Positions 933-60,332 of a DNA stretch of 64,000 nt are shown here, in pieces. The stretch lies in assembly GCA_013141415.1 (NCBI GenBank), contig JABFQY010000001.1, positions 372,001-436,000 on the forward strand, written 5' to 3'. Each line of letters begins with the position of its first letter. Position 1 is the stretch's first letter. This stretch comes from Kiritimatiellaceae bacterium (lineage in GTDB: Bacteria > Verrucomicrobiota > Kiritimatiellia > Kiritimatiellales > Tichowtungiaceae). The position numbers and the translations under genes are program-made. The notes beneath the pieces were generated by a model. That model saw only the letters and a list, made by a program, of their open reading frames with translations, was not told the DNA's origin and searched no databases.

Positions 933-1874
933 CTAACAGCAGCACCCGGATGACCGGGGCTTGTCTGTCGAGCAATCGCACTGGCAGGCCGATTTGGTTG
1001 CAGATACGGATTTATCCGTCGAGCAGTCGCATTCGCAGGACGTTTTTTTTGCGGCGTCGGTTTTATCCGGCGCACAGCAGCAGGAATTGGCAGGTTGTTT
1101 CATGGCTTTCTCCAATATGTGAATAAAAAAGAGCGCGGCGGTTACGCCGCCGACTAACGGGGCGGCGATGTAAACATAAAAGAACCCGCCGGAGCGATCT
1201 GGAAATGCGGCGTCGCCCCAGCCCGCAAGCCAGGCCACCAGACGCGGGCCGAAATCGCGCGCCGGATTCAGTCCCGCCTGAGTCAGCGGCGCGATCAGGC
1301 AAATGATGGATGTCACGGTCAGGCCGATGAATACCGGTGCCAGCGCATTGTCCGGGCGGCCGACATTACAGCCTTCCGTCAGCGCAAAAATCATCAGTAC
1401 CAGCAGGAACGTACCAAACGCTTCCGCGCCGATGGCCAGTGGAAGAGAAACAACGGCGCCGGAGCCGGAATAATATTCGCCGAACATTCGGGCGGTCGCC
1501 ACCGATTCCGCCGTGCCGCGCACAATGCCGTGAGCATTTTCGTAGGCCGCGATGGACGGGGCGAATAGCGCGTACACCGTCAGACCGGCGAGAATCGCGC
1601 CAGCGAACTGGGCGGTGATATAGACCGGCAGTTTCCGAACCGGCATGCGTCCGCTGGCGGCCATCGCCACGCTCACCGCCGGGTTGAGATGCGCACACGA
1701 CAGATGCCGCGTGAGATAAATCGCCAGCGTCACGCCGATTCCCCACGCCAGAGCGATCTGCATCAAACTCTGATACGCATTAAACAGAATGGAAACTGCG
1801 ACCGATCCGCATCCGAACAGCACCAGCAAAAAGGTGCCCAGTGCTTCACCGATGAATTCCCGCCTGCAGATCAT
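933..1874 (-). CDS. MIP family channel (aquaporin/glycerol facilitator) with cysteine-rich tail
   Basis: A major intrinsic protein of 313 residues with six hydrophobic helices and both pore motifs: NPAV (first half) and NPARD (second half). The Asp after the second NPAR is typical of glycerol-conducting members. The core ends near residue 258. The last 49 residues (265-313) are unlike any usual MIP tail: 12 cysteines arranged CCC, CECDC, CQCDC and CCC, with the block CDCSTDK repeated. Such spacing suggests binding of thiophilic metals or metalloids, which is inference. An AAGGAG ribosome site precedes the ATG. The gene starts 24 bp after smc ends. The substrate (water, glycerol, arsenite or other) cannot be told from sequence. 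Confidence 0.9.
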   Translation of the reverse strand: MICRREFIGEALGTFLLVLFGCGSVAVSILFNAYQSLMQIALAWGIGVTLAIYLTRHLSCAHLNPAVSVAMAASGRMPVRKLPVYITAQFAGAILAGLTVYALFAPSIAAYENAHGIVRGTAESVATARMFGEYYSGSGAVVSLPLAIGAEAFGTFLLVLMIFALTEGCNVGRPDNALAPVFIGLTVTSIICLIAPLTQAGLNPARDFGPRLVAWLAGWGDAAFPDRSGGFFYVYIAAPLVGGVTAALFFIHILEKAMKQPANSCCCAPDKTDAAKKTSCECDCSTDKSVSATKSACQCDCSTDKPRSSGCCC

Positions 1875-1898
1875 TTCCGGAACTTCTCCTTGGAAGAA

Positions 1899-4800
1899 TT
1901 ATGGCTTGGCGGCGTCGGAGTCCTGATAGTCGGAAAACTTCATGGACATGGTGCGCGAGACGCCGCGGTTGGGCATGGTTACGCCGTAGATCACGTCGGC
2001 CGCTGAAATGGTCTGTCGGCTGTGCGTGATCAGGATGAACTGCGATTGCGTCAGGAAGCCTTTGACCATTTTCACGAACCGGCTGACGTTAGCTTCGTCG
2101 AGCGCCGCGTCCATTTCGTCGAGTACGCAGAACGGGCTCGGCTTAACTTTGAACAGCGCGAAGAGCAGGGCGACCGCAGTCATCGTGCGTTCGCCGCCGG
2201 AGAGCAGCGAAATGGTCTGGAGCTTTTTGCCGGGAGGCCGGGCGATAATTTCAATGCCGGATTCCAGTACGTCCGTTTCGTCCACCAAGACCAGCTTGGC
2301 CGCGCCGCCGCCGAAGAGCTGTTCAAAGATGATGCCGAAGTTTTCGTTCACCTTGTCAAACGTGTCTTTAAACAGTTCGGTGGTCGTGGCGTTGATCTTT
2401 TTGATCATTTCGACAAGCTGGTCTTTGGCGCTGATCAGGTCGGCTTCCTGCTGACTGAGGAAGGCGAAGCGTTCTTCGAGTTCGGCGTGTTCTTCGATGG
2501 CGACCAGATTAACCGGGCCCATGGATTCGAGCTTAGCGCGGTGTTCAGCGGCCTGAATTTCAATTTCTTCCATCGCCGGTTCGACATCGTTTTCCCATTT
2601 CGGGGCGGGCTCGCGGGCGAGCTGGTCGGGCGTGATGTGCCAAGTGGCGGTCAACCGGTCGAGCGAGTTCTGGTGGCGCATACGCTGTTCCGCCAGTTCG
2701 ACTTCGAGTTTGGTTTTGCCGTTCTGCATTTCTTCCATTTCGCTCTGAAGCGTACGGAGAGTCTGCTCGCGTTCGGAAAGGGCGGCGGTGCGGCCTTCGC
2801 GTACCTGCCGGGCTTCGGCCAGTTTCTTTTCCGCGGCGGCGACGGCGGCGCTGAGCGGAGCAACTTTCTGCTCGGCCTCGCTGCTGGCGGCTTTGAGCTG
2901 GGCGACGCGCTGCTGGTAGGAGCTGACGCCGCGTGTCCGTTCTTCGATCAGTTCCTGCAGTTCTTTCAGCCGCGCTTCGAGCGGCTGGCGGCGGCTCTTG
3001 AGCGATTCGATCCGCTGTTCGTGCTGGGAATACTGCACGCGGCACTCGGATGTTTCGGAAAGCACGGTGGCGCGCAGTTCTTCGAGCGCGTTGAGCGTTT
3101 CGGTCTGGGTCGAAATCTGCTGGCGGGTCTGCGCCAGCTTATCGCGCGCTTCGGCCCCTTCGCGGGCAACGGCGGTACGGCGGTCTTCGCCGGAACCTTT
3201 TTGCTCCATCAGTTTATTAAATTCGTAGGTGACGGTTTCGACCCGTTCGCGGGCCTGTTTCAGTTCGCGGGCAATGACCTGGCTTTCACCTTCCTGTACG
3301 GCGAGGGAACGGCGGCGGTCATCGAGTTCGCGCTGAGCGGCTTCGAGCGCGTCGCCGGTTCCGTTCTGCTCGGCGCGCAGGGCTTCGTGCAGTTTACGTT
3401 TATCGGCCAGCGTTTTTTCCAAGGTCTGGATATCGCCCTGCAACTGTTCGCGCAAATGGTGGCGGCCCAGCGGATTGATTTCGCCTTCTTCGGGTTTCCA
3501 AAGTTCGGCGGTGCCTTCGGCGGTCAGCAGTTCGCCGCGCTTGGTTACAAACACCGAACCGGCGGGCAGGGTGAGCGGAATCGCCTGAAGCGTTTCAGCG
3601 ACAAAAACATTAGCGAGCAGTCGCGCGGCCAGCGGGCGGACTTCGTCGGCGCAGGAAATTTTTCCGAGCAGTGAATTTTCGGCAGCGGCCGGAGCGTCGC
3701 CTTCGGCGGCGAGCAGGCGTACCGCGCCCTGATTACTTTCGGCCAGCAGGGTGAGAACGTTGCGTGCGCCGGAACGGGTGCGGACAACCAGTGCATCCAT
3801 CCACGGACGGAGGACCGCTTCGAGCGCGGTTTCGAAACCAGACGCGGCGGTAAACTGTTCGGCCAGCGGGCCGACGACGTTTTCGTCGCCGCGATCCAGC
3901 AGGTGCTGGGCTCCAGCGGGGAAACCTTCTTTGCGGGCTTCAAAAACCATTTCGAGGCGGGCGTTTTTGTCGGCCAGCTTCCGCTGGAGTTCGGAAATTT
4001 CTTTTTCCAGAGTCTGGATTTTTTCGGCGGCGGACGAGCGGCGGTCGCGCAGTTCAGCCATCGCGGTCTGCTGTGCGGCGACGGCCGCTTTCAGTTCTTC
4101 CGCTTTGGCGGCCATTTGAGTGCCGCGTTCCTGATAGGACGCCAGCGCCCGTTCGAGTCCGCTCTTTTCGGCGGCGAGCTGTTCCTTGCGGATCACACCG
4201 GCGCGCTCCTTGGCGTCGATTTCGGAAAGTTCGTTCTGCAGGCGTCCGATACGCTGGTCGAGCGTCATGGATTCGTTGCGCAGACGGTTCAGCGCTTCAC
4301 GGCCTGAATGAACCTGCGCTTCGGTTTCGCGCTGACGGGTTGTCGCGGTTTCCAGTTCGGTCTTAGCCTTCAGCCGTTCGGCTTCGGCGGACTGCATCAT
4401 CTGTACAACTTCTTCGAGCGAAGCGCGGTGCTGGGTCAGGCGGCTTTTCGCCTCTTCAGATTCTTTGGTGTTCTGCTGGGCTAGCGTTTCGAGTTCGGTG
4501 ATGCGTTCGGCGTTGGTACGGATGGTCTGCTGGGCGCGTTCGAGTTCATTTTTAACGCGCATCGAATCGTCCATCGCCGAGCCGATCGCGGTTTCGAGCT
4601 GCTGGAGTTCGGCGCGCAGGGCATCGGTTTCGCCGTTGGCGGCGGCGATGCGCCGGTGGGTTTCGTCCACTTTGACGCGGGAGGTTTCGAGCTGGGCGCG
4701 GATTTCGTCGATACGGGTGCTGAGCTGTTTGAGGCGGTGGCGCGTGGAATAAATATCCAGCGCGCGGAGTTCTTCCTGCAGGACCTTGAAGCGCTGGGCT

Positions 4801-52008: not shown

Positions 52009-52884
52009 CCAGCGAATGAATAAAATCTACGAATGGAAAATTAGAGAAGAACTCCTCGTAACGTCAGTTTTGATTTCCCGAAATTCAGCAAAACTCCGGC
52101 AGGAACAAAAAGATGTTTCATACCGCTGCGCAACCGGGCCAGCTCCATGGCGGTGGTATCCTCAAAAGCAGTTACAGAAAGAAGAAGATTTTTATCAATA
52201 AGAACGGAATCCAGCATACGCCGTTCAAAAACGATTCCGTTAAATGACGGGGCCGCTTCCGGCACTTGAGGGTTCAGGTTCTGCCCGGCGAGTTCTCGTC
52301 GCAGAATTTTTTTAGAAGATTCTGCGCCGTAACCAAGGCCGTGCAGCGCCAGAACATTTTTACAAGACGCTCGGATTTTCCCGGTAATATCTGGCATTTG
52401 CGACTCAATGGAATCCCAGCATCCCTCAAAGCAGATTTCCCCGCTGACAGGTGTGTGCGGCACTCGTTTGTAAGACAGACGTTCCAAGCCGAAATTAATG
52501 AGCATCCCGAGGTCTTTTTCCCAGCATTTCAAATAATTGATCAGTTGTGTGTAATGCTGAGATGCAAAGCCGGTCCGGATGTGCTTGAGCTCGAGGATGA
52601 CCCGGTTTCCCGCCAGAATATCCAGTTCAAATTCATCAACCGGGTCATCCCGGTGCATCAGCCGCTTGCTCAAGTGACTTTCAGCGGTCAGGTCTCTTGT
52701 CCGCAAGGCATTCAGCATGGCCCGGTGGTAGTCCCATTCATCCCATCCCGGTCCAAGTTCGTTATGAACATCGAATGCTGCCCCGATAATCTGATGCGAT
52801 AATTCGGGGTGCAACAGATCCGGGTTATATGTTTCATGTTTCGGCATACCAGAGATTTATTCGTAGATTTTATTCATTCGCTGG
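52009..52884 (-). mobile_element. 876-bp cassette with 26-bp terminal inverted repeats (family C)
   Basis: The ends are perfect inverted repeats of 26 bp: CCAGCGAATGAATAAAATCT plus ACGAAT at 52009-52034 and its complement at 52859-52884. Between them is a single gene, 6 bp from one repeat and 11 bp from the other. No target duplication is evident. The right repeat supplies the last codons and stop of the sulfite reductase gene (AGC GAA TGA). A 78-bp relative lies at 57986. Mobility is inferred from structure and repetition. Confidence 0.75.
52041..52847 (-). CDS. GxxExxY protein, PD-(D/E)xK nuclease-like, inside the inverted-repeat cassette
   Basis: A 268-residue protein. The family motif is G34-WD-E37-WD-Y40 in HNELGPGWDEWDY. 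A PD-(D/E)xK-like core follows: Asp76 in FELDILAGN, E86-L-K88 in VILELKHI, and Gln101 in YTQLINYL. The usual family member is about 125 residues; here residues 210-268 look like a second, decayed half copy (LLLSVTAFED to VLLNFGKSKLTL) lacking ExK. No ribosome site precedes the ATG; a six-codon frame MNKIYE in the repeat lies just upstream. Family function is unknown. Confidence 0.75.
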   Translation of the reverse strand: MPKHETYNPDLLHPELSHQIIGAAFDVHNELGPGWDEWDYHRAMLNALRTRDLTAESHLSKRLMHRDDPVDEFELDILAGNRVILELKHIRTGFASQHYTQLINYLKCWEKDLGMLINFGLERLSYKRVPHTPVSGEICFEGCWDSIESQMPDITGKIRASCKNVLALHGLGYGAESSKKILRRELAGQNLNPQVPEAAPSFNGIVFERRMLDSVLIDKNLLLSVTAFEDTTAMELARLRSGMKHLFVPAGVLLNFGKSKLTLRGVLL

Positions 52885-54469
52885 CAATAAACGCCCGGAA
52901 AGCTTCGATTTCGATCCGTTCGCAGAAGTCGGTGAAGAGTTCATTCTGACTGTTACGGTGCTTTAGATAAGCGTTCAGAATCTTCTTCACCGCCGGAACG
53001 ATTTCAGCCGAATCAGCATCGCAAAGCGGTTCGCCGATTTTTCCGGCTTCGCTCAATTTTCCTCCGACAAAGACGGTATAGCCTTCGGTGCTGCCGCCGC
53101 TCTCGTTACGAGTGCGCCGACCGCGCAGTCCGATGTCGGCAATCCAGGCGTGAGCGCAGTTGTTCGGGCAGCCGGTAATGTTAATCCGCAGCGGACCGAC
53201 ATCCTTCCAGTATTTTTCGTCACCGGCCAGTGCGGCGTACAGGCGACGGTAGGCGTCCGGCGAATCGGATACCGCCATCTTGCACATGGTGGTGCCGACA
53301 CAAGCGACAATATCCGGCAGGTGTTCGTGACCGCTGGTGCGGAAGCCTGCGGCATGCAGCGCCTCCAGCAGCGCCGGAACGTTGGCGTCTGGAACGTCGT
53401 GCAATTCAATATTCTGACGGTTGGTGAACATGATTTTTCCGCCGCCGAGTTTATCGGCCAGCCGCGAAATGATTCTGGACTGCGCCGTCTTTAGCTCCGA
53501 GCGCGGAATCATTACTCGCACGACGCTTAGTCCGGCCTGTTTCTGTGGAATGATTTCCTGACCGTTCAGTAGCATTCTTCCAATGTTTGGAAGCGGATTT
53601 TTGGCATATTCGATTTGCTCAAGTCCGGTGATGCCACGCTCCTTCAGAATGTCCATGACGACATCGCCGAAGCCTTTGGCGCCCATCTTATCGACGACAA
53701 TTTTCAGGCGGGAGAAGGCGCGGTTGCGCCGGTCGCCGTGACGGCGAAACGCTTCCACGGTGGCGCGGGCGACCGGCAGTACCAATTCTTCCGGCACCCA
53801 GTCAAAAATTACTTTGGCCAGATAGGGACGAGCGCCGAGTCCGCCGCCGGCATGGAATTTCCAGCCGACTGTGTCGCCGCGTTTTACCGGCACCCAGCCC
53901 TGGCAGTTCATCAGCGTCTGCGCGCCTGCTTCGTTGGCGAACGCTACGCTGATCTTGTGTTTGCGCGGAAGGTTGCGCTGTAAATCGCGGATTTCATGGT
54001 CGGTCGCCAGCATTTGGATGATTTTGTGCGAGTCGCCGATCTGTTCTTGAGCGACGCCTGCCAGCGATGAGCCGATGATATTGCGCGGTACGTCGCCGCA
54101 ACCGTTCTTGGTGGTGATGCCGACTTCAGCCATGCCTTCGATAATTTTATAAATGTCCTCTTTGCGGATCCAGTGGTACTGAAGCGTCTGGCGGGTGGTG
54201 ATGCACAGCTCGCCTTGCGCGAATTCTTCAGCCAGATCAATCGCGCGGTTAAACTGCGCGGTTGTCATCAGTCCGCCAGGGGTGACGACACGGATCATAA
54301 AAAAGCTAGGCTGAAGCTGGTGGTAAACGCCACTCCATTTAAACATCGCCAGCTCGTTCGGCGTGATTTGATCAAAAGGGCGGGTGGCAATCTCGCGGAA
54401 ATCGAAGTCCGGGTTGATTTCGAGTTTATCGCGTTCGACCTGCGTTAATTCCGGTTGTGCTGTCATCAA
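52874..54469 (-). CDS. sulfite/nitrite reductase hemoprotein (siroheme, [4Fe-4S])
   Basis: A 531-residue siroheme reductase of the ferredoxin/NirA-like type. The cofactor ligands are C-x5-C at 390-396 (CVGTTMC) and C-x3-C at 434-438 (CPNNC). TTRQTLQYHW (91-100) belongs to the substrate and siroheme pocket. With APS reductase upstream and siroheme genes next door, sulfite is the likely substrate. The final residues come from the family C repeat. A family A palindrome codes LPNIGR (293-298). Confidence 0.9.
   Translation of the reverse strand: MMTAQPELTQVERDKLEINPDFDFREIATRPFDQITPNELAMFKWSGVYHQLQPSFFMIRVVTPGGLMTTAQFNRAIDLAEEFAQGELCITTRQTLQYHWIRKEDIYKIIEGMAEVGITTKNGCGDVPRNIIGSSLAGVAQEQIGDSHKIIQMLATDHEIRDLQRNLPRKHKISVAFANEAGAQTLMNCQGWVPVKRGDTVGWKFHAGGGLGARPYLAKVIFDWVPEELVLPVARATVEAFRRHGDRRNRAFSRLKIVVDKMGAKGFGDVVMDILKERGITGLEQIEYAKNPLPNIGRMLLNGQEIIPQKQAGLSVVRVMIPRSELKTAQSRIISRLADKLGGGKIMFTNRQNIELHDVPDANVPALLEALHAAGFRTSGHEHLPDIVACVGTTMCKMAVSDSPDAYRRLYAALAGDEKYWKDVGPLRINITGCPNNCAHAWIADIGLRGRRTRNESGGSTEGYTVFVGGKLSEAGKIGEPLCDADSAEIVPAVKKILNAYLKHRNSQNELFTDFCERIEIEAFRAFIASE
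53578..53592. repeat. exact family A palindrome inside the sulfite reductase gene
   Basis: TTCCAATGTTTGGAA, identical to the copies at 14118 and 61189, read on the minus strand as LPNIG. It sits between the two halves of the reductase, near residue 295. Confidence 0.75.
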
Positions 54470-54551: not shown

Positions 54552-54601
54552 TTGACTTCGACTTAAAAGTCATATACCTAAAACGTGATAGTATTTATCA
54601 C
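54552..54601 (+). promoter_or_regulatory. promoter and operator-like dyad upstream of the CysG-HemA gene
   Basis: TTGACT (54552-54557) and TACCTA (54575-54580) are spaced 17 bases apart, with TATACC overlapping. Just downstream is GTGATA-GTATT-TATCAC (54585-54601), a perfect dyad placed where a repressor would block this promoter. The same gap serves the divergent sulfite reductase gene. GTGATAA also occurs upstream of cysH. The regulator is not identified. Confidence 0.55.
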
Positions 54602-54617
54602 TAAAAGAGATAGAACC

Positions 54618-55961
54618 ATGTCTGGAGCGCCATTGTCAAAAAAAATGTTTCCGGCCGCCCTTATTTTAGAGGGACGGAAATGTCTGCTTGTCGGCGGCGG
54701 GCGGGTCGCCGTGCGGAAAGCCGCCAAACTGGCCGAGGCCGGCGCGGCACTGACGGTGGTGGCTCCGGAAATCAAACCGCCGATTAAAGCACTGTCCGGC
54801 ATCAATTTGGTTGAGCGCTGTTTTGTCCCCGAAGACCTCGACGGAGCCTTTCTGGTTTTTGCTTTGACGGATAATCCGGTGCTTAACCGCCGGATTGTCG
54901 AACTCTGCCGCGAGAAGAAAATCCTCTGCTCGGCTGCCGACGGCAACTGGCCTGACGGCGATCTGATTCTGCCTGCCAGTTTCAGCGAAGACGGACTAAC
55001 CGTTTCTGTCAGCACGTCAGGACGCTCCTGCCGCCGGTCGCGCCTTCTGCGCGAAAGCCTCAGCCGCCACGTCCGCTTTCTGCGCGACATCGATCTGATT
55101 GTCATCGGCGCGGATCACAGTACCGGCGGCTTTCAATCGGTGGAAAAACTGAAAGCCGCCCGGACGGAACTCGAAGAATTGCTGCCGTGTGTCTGGGGCG
55201 TTCATGAATTTATGATTCTAGATACCTGCAACCGCTTTGAAATCGTCGCGCTCATTTCTTCTGGCTCCTGCGCGGCGGTTGAAACTGTTTTACGGAAAAC
55301 GTCCGACGTTTTTGTCTCCAGAGGAATGGACGCTTTCTGTCGGCTGGCCGAAACTGCCGCCGGACTCCGTTCACAGGCTTTCGGTGAAAGTCGTATCGTG
55401 GCTCAAATTAAACAGTCGCTCGCCGATGCACAGGAAAAAGGGTTTGCCGGAAGTTTTCTTCAAAACTGGACGGATACGGCTCTCCACATCTCTAAAGAAA
55501 TCCGGCAAGTGACCGGTTCGTTGCTGCCTGCGCTGGAAACGGAAGATCTTGTTTCCCAGACCTTGAAGAGAAATCTTCCAGCCGTTGGAAAGGTTTTGAT
55601 TATTGGTCGCGGCGAAATCGGACAGGGACTGGCGCGCCGCTTTCCGGATGCCGTCCAAATCAGCGGACGCTCTGACGATGAACTCCGTCAGCAACTGCCT
55701 CGCGCTGATGTAATCATTTGCGCCACCGGTAGCGCCGGTTTTCTCATCGACGAATCACACCGTCCGCTTTTGCGCGCCGGAGCTGTCCTGATTGACTTGT
55801 CCCTGCCGCGCAATATCAACCCGGAACTTCCCGGTGTCATCGGACTGAGCGCGTTGCGCGCCGCCGTACCGCCGGGAAATGCGGACGAACTTTTCGCAAA
55901 GGCCCGCGAAATAATCAATGCACACCGCGACGAATACGACCGGCTGGTGAAATTCCAATGA
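54618..55961 (+). CDS. hemA: CysG N-terminal domain fused to glutamyl-tRNA reductase
   Basis: About 447 residues. The first 155 form a siroheme-synthase N-domain (precorrin-2 dehydrogenase/ferrochelatase) with LVGGGRVAVRKAAKL. From about 160 a glutamyl-tRNA reductase follows: ILDTCNRFEIVAL with the catalytic Cys (about 204), FGESRIVAQIKQSL and the NADPH site IIGRGEIGQGLA. The C-terminal helical dimerisation domain of standard HemA is missing. ATG 54618 is chosen; an upstream ATG at 54585 falls inside the operator dyad. A family A copy codes LPAVGK. It overlaps the next gene by ATGA. Confidence 0.88.
   Translation: MSGAPLSKKMFPAALILEGRKCLLVGGGRVAVRKAAKLAEAGAALTVVAPEIKPPIKALSGINLVERCFVPEDLDGAFLVFALTDNPVLNRRIVELCREKKILCSAADGNWPDGDLILPASFSEDGLTVSVSTSGRSCRRSRLLRESLSRHVRFLRDIDLIVIGADHSTGGFQSVEKLKAARTELEELLPCVWGVHEFMILDTCNRFEIVALISSGSCAAVETVLRKTSDVFVSRGMDAFCRLAETAAGLRSQAFGESRIVAQIKQSLADAQEKGFAGSFLQNWTDTALHISKEIRQVTGSLLPALETEDLVSQTLKRNLPAVGKVLIIGRGEIGQGLARRFPDAVQISGRSDDELRQQLPRADVIICATGSAGFLIDESHRPLLRAGAVLIDLSLPRNINPELPGVIGLSALRAAVPPGNADELFAKAREIINAHRDEYDRLVKFQ
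55576..55590. repeat. family A palindrome inside the CysG-HemA fusion gene
   Basis: TTCCAGCCGTTGGAA, preceded by CTTGAAGAGAAATC, which resembles the left half of the double element at 35024. It codes LPAVGK just before the NADPH-binding strand, at a domain boundary. Confidence 0.65.
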
Positions 55962-57985
55962 AACGACCGATCAAAACCGGAACACGCTCCAGCCGTCTGG
56001 CGCTCATCCAGACGGAATCCGTGCTCTGTCTTTTGCGCGAAAAGATTTCTGGTCTGGAATGGGAGCTTGCTCCCTTTTCCAGTCCCGGCGACCGCGACAA
56101 AATCGCCGATCTGACGACGGCGCCGGACGATTTTTTCACGCGCGACCTCGACGAAGCGCTGTTGGCCGGGTCCATCGACTGCGCCGTCCACAGCGCCAAA
56201 GATTTATCCGATCCATTGCCAGCCGGTCTGGATTTTTTCTGGATGCCCGACTCCGCCGATCCGCGCGACGTGCTGGTCGGGTCGCTGACGCCGCGTACCG
56301 TCGGCGTCAGCAGCGACCGCCGCGCCGCGTATGTAAAAAAAAGGTTTCCGTCGGCGGAAATCAAACCGCTGCGCGGAACCATTGAAGAACGGCTCGCGCA
56401 ACTTGACGCCGGGAAATTCGATGTGCTTATCATGGCCGCCGCCGCGCTCCAGCGGTTGGGATTAGACGATCGAATCGCCGAATGGATTTCACCGGACGAT
56501 CTTCCGGTTCCCGACGGGCAGGGCGCGCTGGCGCTGACTTTTCGTTCCGGCGACGAACGCTTTCTCCGGCTTCGCTCGCTCTTCATCAAACCGATTGTTT
56601 TTGTCGGCGCGGGCATGAATGCCGGACTTTGCACGCAGTCGGGCGTCGCGGCGCTCCGACGCGCCGAAGTCTGTCTGTACGACGCGTTGCTCGACGAAGC
56701 CCTGCTGGCCGAACTGCCGGAAACGGCCCGGAAAATTTTCGTCGGTAAACGTAGCGGACAGCACAGCAGGTCGCAGGATGAAATCTGTAAACTGATTGCC
56801 CGTTTCGCCCGGCAGGGAAAGCGCGTTGTGCGGTTGAAGGGCGGCGATCCCGGAATCTATGGACGGCTCGCCGAGGAAATTGATGCGCTCGACGCGCTTC
56901 AGCTTCCGTATCGCGTTGTTCCCGGCGTCAGCAGTTTAAGTTCAGCGACGACCGGAACCGGTCTTCTGCTCACACGACGTGGAACGGCTGACCGTTTTCG
57001 TGTGCTGACGGCAAAAACCGCCGACGGCGGCTCCGGCGAAACCATCGCGGTATTTATGGGAATTCAATCGCTGAAAGAAACAGCGGCGCGGCTTTTGGCT
57101 GAAGGATATTCTCCGAGCCTGCCGGTTTCGGTGGTGCTGGATGCGGGCGGTCCACAACAGCAAATCATTTCGGCACCGCTCGATGAAATCGCCGCGAAGA
57201 TCGGGTCGACGGATTTGCCGGGGCTGGTTTTAATCGGCGAGGCCGCCGAATCAAAATTTATCTACCGCGCTCACGGTGCCTTGCGCGGCAAGCGCGTCTG
57301 GCTGACATGCAGTCGCGACGTTCAGCCGCGCGCCGCGCTGGCGGTTCTCGATTTCGGCGGTGTGCCGGTTCAACAGCCGCTGATTGAACTGGTGCCGGAA
57401 AAAGTTCCTCCGCTTGGAGTTTACGACTGGCTCATTCTGACTTCGCCGTCGGCGGTTCGCTGTCTGCTGGCGCAACTGGATGATTTGCGCGGCCTGCCGA
57501 AAATTATCTGCTGCGGTGAAGGCACTGCCGCCGCGCTGCGCGCTTTCCGGATTCAGACTGATGCGATGCCGCCGGGCGAATTTAATACCGCAGGCGTTCT
57601 GCGTACGGCGCTGGAAGTGATTCCTCCGGACGCGCGGATTTTACGTCTGCGCTCAGATCGCGCCGGAGAAAAACTTTCGGCTGAACTGCGTAAAACATTT
57701 TCACGCGTTGATGATGTCGTGATCTGCCGCAATCAGCCGGTGCGCTGTGAAATGCCCGGATGCGATGCTGTATTTTTTGCCAGCGTTTCGGCGGTGGAAA
57801 GTTTTGTCGAACAGTTCGGCGTTGGAAAACTGGCGGACAAAACGGTTGTTGTGATCGGCGCGCGCGATGCGGAGGCTTTGCGCTGTCACGGCGTCAGTAA
57901 TCTTATTGCACCTCGCCGCGCCACGGTCGAAGATGCGGTTGCCGCACTTGCAGAATTTACGGTTCGAGGTGAAATTGAGAAATGA
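55958..57985 (+). CDS. HemC(truncated)-CobA-HemD triple fusion
   Basis: A 675-residue tetrapyrrole enzyme. Residues 1-208 match porphobilinogen deaminase domains 1 and 2 (TGTRSSRLALIQTE, HSAKDL with the catalytic Asp82, PLRGTIEERLAQLD), but domain 3, which carries the cysteine binding the dipyrromethane cofactor, is absent. Residues 211-438 are uroporphyrinogen III methyltransferase (VGAGMNAGLCTQSG, RLKGGDPGIYGR). Residues 445-675 are uroporphyrinogen III synthase-like. It would take porphobilinogen toward precorrin-2 for siroheme. Frame intact. Confidence 0.85.
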   Translation: MKRPIKTGTRSSRLALIQTESVLCLLREKISGLEWELAPFSSPGDRDKIADLTTAPDDFFTRDLDEALLAGSIDCAVHSAKDLSDPLPAGLDFFWMPDSADPRDVLVGSLTPRTVGVSSDRRAAYVKKRFPSAEIKPLRGTIEERLAQLDAGKFDVLIMAAAALQRLGLDDRIAEWISPDDLPVPDGQGALALTFRSGDERFLRLRSLFIKPIVFVGAGMNAGLCTQSGVAALRRAEVCLYDALLDEALLAELPETARKIFVGKRSGQHSRSQDEICKLIARFARQGKRVVRLKGGDPGIYGRLAEEIDALDALQLPYRVVPGVSSLSSATTGTGLLLTRRGTADRFRVLTAKTADGGSGETIAVFMGIQSLKETAARLLAEGYSPSLPVSVVLDAGGPQQQIISAPLDEIAAKIGSTDLPGLVLIGEAAESKFIYRAHGALRGKRVWLTCSRDVQPRAALAVLDFGGVPVQQPLIELVPEKVPPLGVYDWLILTSPSAVRCLLAQLDDLRGLPKIICCGEGTAAALRAFRIQTDAMPPGEFNTAGVLRTALEVIPPDARILRLRSDRAGEKLSAELRKTFSRVDDVVICRNQPVRCEMPGCDAVFFASVSAVESFVEQFGVGKLADKTVVVIGARDAEALRCHGVSNLIAPRRATVEDAVAALAEFTVRGEIEK

Positions 57986-58063
57986 CCAGCGAATGAATAA
58001 AATTTACGAATACATAGATAAGAGAACTGCAATGTTGATTCGTAGATTTTATTCATTCGCTGG
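57986..58063. mobile_element. 78-bp gene-less family C element (MITE-like)
   Basis: Arms of 26 bp (57986-58011 and 58038-58063) match the cassette repeats at 52009/52859 with one change (TTT for TCT) in the left arm and none in the right. Only 26 bp lies between. The word AAGAGAACT inside resembles AGAGAAGAACT at the cassette's left end, suggesting an internal-deletion derivative. It begins exactly after the stop of the HemC-CobA-HemD gene. Confidence 0.8.
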
Positions 58064-58096: not shown

Positions 58097-59080
58097 ATGA
58101 GCAGATTTCCTGAAACCCGACTGCGGAGGTTGCGCCGCACGGAATCGTTGCGCCGGATGCTGGGACAGCCGTTGCCCGGGCCGGAAAAATTTGTCTGGCC
58201 GGTGTTCCTTCGCGAAGGCAAAAAAGTGGATGAGCCGATTTCCGCCATGCCGGGCCAGTCCCGCATGAGCGTCGATGTGCTGCTTAAAAAACTGGAACCG
58301 GTGGCAGAAAGCGGCGTCGGCGGCGTGCTTCTTTTCGGACTGCCTGATCCGGCGAAAAAAGATGCGAGCGGCTCAGAGGCCTTCAATGAAAAGGGCGCGG
58401 TTCAGCGGGCGATTCCGGCAATCAAAAAAGCGTTTCCGCAACTGACGGTTTTCACCGATGTCTGCCTGTGCGCTTATACCGATCATGGACATTGCGGTCC
58501 GCTGAATAAAGCCGGCGAAGTCGATAACGATGCTGCGCTGACAATGCTGCAAAAGGTGGCGCTTTCGCACGCCGCCGCCGGTGCCGACTGCGTCGCGCCG
58601 AGCGCGATGATGGATGGACAGGTTTTGGCGATTCGCGAAGCGCTCGACGAAGAGGAGCTGACCGACACGCTGATTATGAGTTATTCCAGCAAGTTCGCTT
58701 CATCCATGTACGGCCCGTTCCGCGAAGCGGAGCAGTCGGCTCCCGGCAAAGGCGACCGGCAGGGCTATCAGGCGCCGTACAACGATTTGCGGCAGGCACT
58801 GCGCGAATCGGAGTTTGATGAAGACGAAGGCGCGGATATTCTGATGGTCAAACCGGCACTCTTTTATCTCGATGTGATCCAACAGGTGCGCGAATCAACC
58901 GACCTGCCGGTGGCGGCCTACAACGTCAGCGGCGAATATTCTATGCTGATTGCTCAGGCCGAACGCGGCTGGGGCGATTTGCGCGCCATGGTGCGCGAAA
59001 GCACGGCGGCCATGCAGCGCGCCGGAACCGATATTTTCATCTCTTACTGGGCCAATCAATATGACCGCTTTTTCAAATGA
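58097..59080 (+). CDS. hemB: delta-aminolevulinic acid dehydratase
   Basis: HemB of 327 residues, condensing two aminolevulinate molecules to porphobilinogen. The Zn-type metal site is intact, CLCAYTDHGHCG with three cysteines. Schiff-base lysines sit in SYSSKFASSMYGPFR and MVKPALFYLDVIQ. GAGAGG lies about 6 bp upstream. The 3' end overlaps hemL by 20 bp. Confidence 0.97.
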   Translation: MSRFPETRLRRLRRTESLRRMLGQPLPGPEKFVWPVFLREGKKVDEPISAMPGQSRMSVDVLLKKLEPVAESGVGGVLLFGLPDPAKKDASGSEAFNEKGAVQRAIPAIKKAFPQLTVFTDVCLCAYTDHGHCGPLNKAGEVDNDAALTMLQKVALSHAAAGADCVAPSAMMDGQVLAIREALDEEELTDTLIMSYSSKFASSMYGPFREAEQSAPGKGDRQGYQAPYNDLRQALRESEFDEDEGADILMVKPALFYLDVIQQVRESTDLPVAAYNVSGEYSMLIAQAERGWGDLRAMVRESTAAMQRAGTDIFISYWANQYDRFFK

Positions 59081-60332
59081 AGAACTTTTTGAACGCGCGG
59101 AACGGGTAATCCCCGGCGGGGTGAACAGTCCGGTGCGCAGTTTCCGCTCGGTCGGCGGAACGCCGATTTTTATCGAGCGCGGCGCGGGATCAAAACTTTA
59201 CACCTCCGACGGGCGCGAGCTGATTGATTTTTGTATGTCGTGGGGCGCGCTACTGTTCGGTCACGCCGATCCGGAAATTGTCGAAGCCGTTCAGAAAGCT
59301 GCGGTGGACGGTACCGGCTTCGGTGCGGCGACCCGGCGGGAAGTTTTGTTTGCCGAAAAACTTTGTTCGATGATTTCGTATGTGGAACAGGTGCGTTGTG
59401 TCAGCTCCGGCACGGAAGCGGTGATGACGGCGATCCGCCTAGCTCGCGGCGCAACGGGGCGGGATAAAATTCTGAAGTTCGACGGCTGTTATCACGGTCA
59501 TTCCGATTCAATGCTTGTTTCTGCCGGAAGCGGGCTGCTGACCGGTGGACTGAGTTCCTCCGCTGGCGTTCCGGCGGCGGTGGCGGACGATACGCTGGTC
59601 GCACCGTACAATGACGTCGCGGCGGTGGAAGAAATTATGAAGCATTCCGGCGACCGGATCGCCGCGATTATCGTCGAGCCGGTGGCCGCCAACATGGGCT
59701 TGGTTTTGCCGGAGCCGGGATTTCTCGAAGCGCTGCGCGAGCTGACGGGCCGCTACGGCGCGTTATTGATTTTTGACGAAGTGATTACCGGCTTCCGGTT
59801 CGGGCCGACGACCTACGGCGCGCTGTGCGGAGTGGAACCTGATTTGACCTGTCTCGGAAAAATCATCGGCGGCGGATTGCCGCTGGCCGCGCTCGGCGGA
59901 CGGCGGAAACTTATGGAACAGCTCGCGCCGCTCGGCCCGGTCTATCAGGCCGGAACGCTCAGTGGCAATCCGCTGGCCGTCGTCGCTGGGCTGACAACGT
60001 TAGAGAAAATCGGGCGAGATAATCCGTTTCCGAAGTTTGGAAACCGCGACGAGGGCGTCGCGTCTACGTTTCCAAGATTTGGAAATATCAGCGTTCAGGC
60101 AAAGGGAAGTGCCTTTACGGTTTTCTTCCGGAATGGATTGCCGCGGAATCTGGCGGAGGCGAAAGAGTGTGACACAAAGCGGTATGCCGCGTTTTTTCAC
60201 GGAATGCTGGAACGCGGGATCTATCTGCCACCCGCGCAGTTTGAAACGGCTTTTATTTCTGCGACTCACACCGATGCCGATATCGCCGCGCTGGTTGCCT
60301 CGGCTACCGAGGTGCTGAGTCATGGCGCTTGA
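59061..60332 (+). CDS. hemL: glutamate-1-semialdehyde 2,1-aminomutase
   Basis: HemL of 423 residues, a PLP enzyme making 5-aminolevulinate from the product of HemA. Marks are NSPVRSFRSVGGTP, the PLP Lys in CLGKIIGGGLPLAALGG and the segment GTLSGNPLAVVAG. Residues 322-342 are unusual: PFPKFGN and FPRFGN around RDEGVAST replace a helix that homologues have there. This stretch is coded by two family A palindromes around a family B hairpin. The start at 59061 lies inside the hemB 3' end; the frame is open further upstream. Activity despite the replacement is unproven. Confidence 0.93.
   Translation: MTAFSNEELFERAERVIPGGVNSPVRSFRSVGGTPIFIERGAGSKLYTSDGRELIDFCMSWGALLFGHADPEIVEAVQKAAVDGTGFGAATRREVLFAEKLCSMISYVEQVRCVSSGTEAVMTAIRLARGATGRDKILKFDGCYHGHSDSMLVSAGSGLLTGGLSSSAGVPAAVADDTLVAPYNDVAAVEEIMKHSGDRIAAIIVEPVAANMGLVLPEPGFLEALRELTGRYGALLIFDEVITGFRFGPTTYGALCGVEPDLTCLGKIIGGGLPLAALGGRRKLMEQLAPLGPVYQAGTLSGNPLAVVAGLTTLEKIGRDNPFPKFGNRDEGVASTFPRFGNISVQAKGSAFTVFFRNGLPRNLAEAKECDTKRYAAFFHGMLERGIYLPPAQFETAFISATHTDADIAALVASATEVLSHGA
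60028..60084. repeat. composite A-B-A repeat inside hemL
   Basis: TTCCGAAGTTTGGAA (60028-60042), the perfect hairpin CGCGACG-AGGG-CGTCGCG (60045-60062) followed by TCTAC, and the exact copy TTCCAAGATTTGGAA (60070-60084). The 57 bp is in frame with hemL and has no stop in that frame. Confidence 0.85.

Follow-up and report, generated by a model that had tools for sequence, protein, structure and literature searches.

To our knowledge, the growing chain is held by domain 3 and its cysteine in every well-studied porphobilinogen (PBG) deaminase (HemC, or HMBS), the enzyme that assembles four PBG units on the way to heme and siroheme. Domain 3 comprises about 100 residues and bears the cofactor cysteine, Cys242 in E. 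coli and Cys261 in human (PMC7242693, PMC8561815, PMC7907807); by means of the dipyrromethane cofactor bound to this cysteine, the chain is drawn past the catalytic Asp (PMC8561815, PMC7242693, PMC7907807). In human PBG deaminase, all substrate is bound via Cys261, and the apoenzyme has been described as unstable (PMC7907807). No paper on a HemC without domain 3 was found in the open-access literature, to which the search was confined. The NCBIfam model NF002202 (PRK01066; 241 positions), which we take to represent chlamydial HemC, also appears to stop soon after domain 2; curated collections thus already contain short HemCs.

The window analyzed here, a 64,000-nucleotide stretch of DNA from a Kiritimatiellaceae bacterium, contains a gene for a HemC–CobA–HemD fusion protein, the HemC part of which had been claimed in a preliminary description to lack the cofactor-binding domain. 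The features of the locus, in window coordinates, are as follows:

52874–54469, minus strand: nitrite/sulfite reductase (NIR_SIR), probable siroheme consumer (ORF, Pfam)
54585–55961, plus strand: fusion of SirC (precorrin-2 dehydrogenase) and HemA (glutamyl-tRNA reductase) (ORF, profiles)
55958–57985, plus strand: HemC(domains 1–2)–CobA–HemD fusion gene, 675 aa (ORF, Pfam, AF2 model)
55958–56572, plus strand: HemC domains 1–2, residues 1–205 (Pfam, alignment, superposition on 1pda)
56201–56203, plus strand: Asp82, equivalent of the E. coli catalytic Asp84, invariant (alignments)
56573–56587, plus strand: junction of ≈5 residues at the site of canonical domain 3 (about 100 aa) (Pfam, junctions of relatives)
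56588–57250, plus strand: CobA/SUMT-like domain, residues 211–431 (Pfam, structure comparison)
56630–56632, plus strand: Cys225, in 68 of 78 relatives, not universal (alignment)
56672–56674, plus strand: Cys239, in 65 of 78 relatives, not universal (alignment)
57287–57976, plus strand: HemD (uroporphyrinogen III synthase) domain, residues 444–673 (Pfam, structure comparison)
58097–59080, plus strand: hemB (PBG synthase) (ORF, Pfam)
59061–60332, plus strand: hemL-type aminotransferase (ORF from 58950; the likely ATG at about 59061 is an estimate)

The open reading frame of the fusion begins with the ATG at 55958 and ends with the stop at 57985. Three Pfam domains were identified in the product: Porphobil_deam (PF01379) at residues 5–202 (E = 1.5e-49; 168.8 bits vs. 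a cut-off of 22.1), TP_methylase (PF00590) at residues 213–412 (E = 1.6e-34; 120.1 bits vs. 27.8) and HEM4 (PF02602) at residues 465–661 (E = 2.7e-31; 108.9 bits vs. 27.5). PF03900, which represents HemC domain 3, had no match within the 675 residues. Domain 2 ends in ...DGQGALALTFRSGDERFLRLRSLF and CobA begins directly with IKPIVFVGAGM, so that domain 2 does run straight into CobA, as had been described. The AF2 model of the protein (pLDDT 90.1, pTM 0.88) was fully occupied by HemC domains 1–2 (residues ≈1–205), the SUMT fold (≈208–431) and HemD (444–673). Since all residues are taken up by these three folds, there is no space for domain 3, either at its canonical site or elsewhere in the protein. 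Domains 1–2 of the model could be superimposed on 1pda, the PBG deaminase of E. coli, at 1.6 Å over 202 residues, and the HemD part matched 1wd7 with Z = 16.5 over 224 residues (RMSD = 7.2, with two hinged lobes). For the SUMT part, the RMSD from solved SUMTs was 12–13 Å, which suggests that its two lobes may be positioned unlike those in the solved structures; the inter-domain geometry of the model was therefore not used.

The fusion is the sole such enzyme detected in the organism. Its HemC part was the single PF01379 match in a profile search of the genome, and the second, full-length hemC that had been proposed as a check was not found. At E ≤ 10, PF03900 gave one sub-cutoff match in the genome (11.8 bits; cut-off 26), in a 54-residue frame. 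This profile has low sensitivity for some of the phylum's canonical HemCs, which reach 21–26 bits; a second domain-3 profile, built from the phylum's own canonical HemCs, had no match in this genome. With the two profiles, no credible candidate for a separate domain 3 emerged from this genome or from five relatives. The best match in Pontiella sulfatireligans (L162; 14.5 bits over 28 profile positions, in a 242-residue frame), PERMLIVHDGGGCQVTYAAL, is short and chance-like and lies in an unrelated-looking protein. It was rejected as a domain 3, since the sequence does not resemble one.

The fusion resembles HemC/HMBS (TIGR00212; 1pda, human 7aaj) in the sequence and fold of domains 1–2 (E = 2.8e-31 against human PBG deaminase). 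The catalytic Asp and the set of cleft arginines were indeed retained, together with the catalytic Lys. Among 83 domain-3-less proteins, residues R10, S12, Q18, S79, K81, D82, S119, R121 (80/83), R122, R139, R145, R166, Q188 and G189 (window numbering) are invariant or nearly so. Unlike HemC/HMBS, the fusion lacks domain 3 and the cofactor cysteine, and it is altered at the lid glycine and at the residue ahead of the catalytic Lys-Asp. The lid position, a Gly in 10/10 canonical proteins, is Asp58 in 80 of the 83, and the residue preceding Lys-Asp, which is L, M or F in canonical proteins, is Ala80 in all 83; Phe59 is a further active-site change common to the group. The score against the TIGR00212 equivalog, 160.5 bits, falls under the cut-off of 164. 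Judged from its sequence, a domain-3-less HemC would work like a hydroxymethylbilane synthase that fails one defining feature. Residues 2–202 of the window protein correspond to positions 18–222 of NF002202, and we estimate that the remainder of that model is too short to include the canonical Cys. The fusion scored 123.9 bits against NF002202, below the curated cut-off of 251, and NF002202 models a stand-alone protein, whereas the window protein is fused to CobA and HemD. The comparison suggests that the loss of domain 3 may extend more broadly through the PVC group. The CobA domain shares its fold and the RLKGGDP motif with CysG/SUMT (1pjq, 1s4d, 2ybo), but differs in an altered glycine-rich loop GxGxGD and in a change from YDRLV to YDALL; its TIGR01469 equivalog score was 176.7, under the cut-off of 185.

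Relatives were gathered with an alignment as the query (the fusion protein as a lone query confirmed no relative). Among 58 relatives, PF01379 was found in 40 and PF03900 above its cut-off in one. A sample of 337 genomes from the phylum included 80 genomes of the same class with PF01379, 77 of which had no detectable domain 3. In two of the three class members with PF03900 (G056 and G216), HemC occupies ordinary frames of 325 and 328 residues, while the third (G239, locus L142) encodes a canonical three-domain HemC–CobA–HemD fusion. As some canonical HemCs from other classes score poorly with PF03900, we also inspected the junction sequences themselves. In the named loci L062–L141, every junction motif that could be located showed domain 2 leading into CobA, and the same junction occurs in L146–L149 and L152, from genomes of other classes of the phylum. 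In alignment A2, all 60 intact relatives had PF01379, PF00590 and PF02602 in the order HemC(1–2)–CobA–HemD, and PF03900 was found in none of the 60 rows. Loci L008, L012, L030 and L053 encode HemC(1–2)–HemD without CobA, so HemD shares the chain both in the 60 aligned relatives and in the CobA-less forms. The named hosts are mostly Kiritimatiellae, plus Lentisphaerae-labelled MAGs; one is an isolate, P. sulfatireligans F21(T).

In a tree of domains 1–2, the domain-3-less proteins fall on one side of a branch with support 100/99, although this unrooted tree includes only ten canonical rows. With 77 of 80 genomes affected, the loss of domain 3 is class-wide and not a local defect. An assembly error or an isolated pseudogene, to which we assign a negligible probability, is refuted by the recurrence of an identical junction in dozens of independent genomes, isolates included. 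The L142 fusion (1270–3405, minus strand) has the same order of three activities as the window protein, but still has both the Cys-bearing domain 3 (LREAGADCHLPIG) and the canonical motifs of SUMT. Its HemC groups with the canonical HemCs in the tree, perhaps because the gene was replaced horizontally or the fusion arose independently.

The presence of HemC follows that of NIR_SIR, a siroheme enzyme family, a member of which is encoded beside the cluster in the window. In the 34 genomes that were at least 90% complete, HemC and NIR_SIR were both present in 23 and both absent in nine, with each occurring alone in one (Fisher p = 1.8e-6, ignoring kinship), and in the window's own genus the two are present or absent together. 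One genome, G055 (L160; 92% complete), has NIR_SIR without PF01379, which points either to a gap in the assembly or to an organism that uses siroheme but has no HemC. In G046, which lacks NIR_SIR, the cluster was read as hemA–hemC(1–2)–hemD–hemB–hemL–hemE, with hemE confirmed separately; the enzyme there therefore appears to feed heme. CbiC, of the cobalamin route, was found in none of eight genomes tested, which makes B12 an improbable purpose in those genomes. In the genome of the window, URO-D matches reached only E = 4e-57 and fell short of the strong HemE matches seen in relatives, which leaves HemE uncertain there.

The single HemC of P. sulfatireligans F21 (L132) lacks domain 3, and its genome has a strong HemE match. 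This strain assimilates sulfate in sulfide-free medium and is oxidase-positive, and yeast extract is neither needed nor helpful (PMC7356697). Since its sole HemC is domain-3-less, the pathway probably works with this enzyme. Taken together, these observations make a strong, if indirect, case that the tetrapyrrole is produced by the two-domain enzyme. It had also been proposed that the fusion channels porphobilinogen to precorrin-2. This is only partly apt, given that CobA-less HemC(1–2)–HemD proteins exist, one of them in a heme cluster; what the loss of domain 3 accompanies is therefore the fusion to HemD, not channelling to precorrin-2.

A canonical Cys-tethered dipyrromethane is impossible in a HemC without domain 3. 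On balance, we lean towards a PBG deaminase that functions with two domains and is fused to CobA and HemD, in which the primer is most likely non-covalent and the bilane is passed to HemD. PBG units would be joined at the conserved Asp/Arg site on a chain that lacks the domain-3 thioether tether, with the first unit or units, either PBG or a dipyrromethane primer, retained without a covalent bond by conserved arginines in the domain 1–2 cleft. The completed bilane would be handed to the tethered HemD domain and closed to uroporphyrinogen III, which CobA would methylate to precorrin-2, the neighboring SirC presumably continuing to siroheme. We favor a non-covalent primer and hand-off to HemD because HemD is the only part besides domains 1–2 that is shared by the intact members. 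More tentatively, the first PBG might serve as its own non-covalent primer, yielding an aminomethyl-ended or equivalent bilane that is taken directly by the fused HemD, in what would be a large natural family.

The main alternative is that the anchor has been relocated, with dipyrromethane thioether-linked to a lineage-specific cysteine, either Cys225 or Cys239, where CobA starts, in the main clade and Cys162 in the basal clade. The instability of the human apoenzyme and its binding of all substrate via Cys261 (PMC7907807) count against a non-covalent primer. Within the 78-row set, all main-clade proteins that bear CobA have Cys225 or Cys239, positions at which the aligned solved SUMTs have no Cys, and Cys225 lies 37 residues past the GQG motif, compared to ≈44 for the canonical Cys. 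Cys225 and Cys239 were the replacements suggested in the preliminary description, and both are common, as are Cys451 and Cys519 (52/78 each). However, the basal clade (L050–L056) lacks all four, so neither provides a general rule; there, the equivalent of Cys162 in domain 2, close to the active-site Arg166, is present in 6/6. Furthermore, Cys225 and Cys239 lie within the SUMT fold, adjoining its own active-site motifs, and the CobA-less L008, L012 and L030 lack the CobA segment entirely. No cysteine common to all relatives was found in the alignments, and a universal replacement was rejected on this ground. The data thus do not support one relocated cysteine for all lineages, lineage-specific anchors are possible in the main clade, and we consider the relocated-anchor explanation as a whole rather unlikely. 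We give far less weight to a domain 3 provided by a separate, diverged protein acting in trans, which might be missed by the insensitive PF03900, but for which neither profile yielded a credible candidate and the best P. sulfatireligans match does not look like domain 3. It is equally improbable that the HemC part is dead or repurposed, with tetrapyrroles salvaged or made otherwise: the TIGR00212 score is slightly under its cut-off, but all catalytic residues are invariant across deep divergence, complete upstream genes adjoin the fusion, HemC co-occurs with siroheme enzymes, and the cultured strain assimilates sulfate without needing yeast extract (PMC7356697).

A class with a sole PBG deaminase that lacks domain 3 implies that the cofactor tether is dispensable or movable. 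Its members must build the chain by an unstudied route, since the sole HemC is domain-3-less, yet cultured members seemingly make heme and siroheme. Why a covalent cofactor is needed, and how the enzyme counts to four, could be tested with this smaller natural enzyme and in cultured strains such as Pontiella.

Two pathway enzymes at this locus appear to have lost a C-terminal domain, HemC and HemA; the HemA part of the SirC–HemA fusion had no match to the GlutR dimerization domain. The 23-base sequence AGCGAATGAATAAAATYTACGAA occurs in four copies in the window, arranged as two inverted pairs (57988–58061 and 52011–52882; none expected). One of these pairs lies between the fusion gene and hemB, where it forms a strong hairpin (z = −10.6), and the other brackets an ORF at 52041–52847. 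The two pairs may represent a mobile element together with an empty relic of it.
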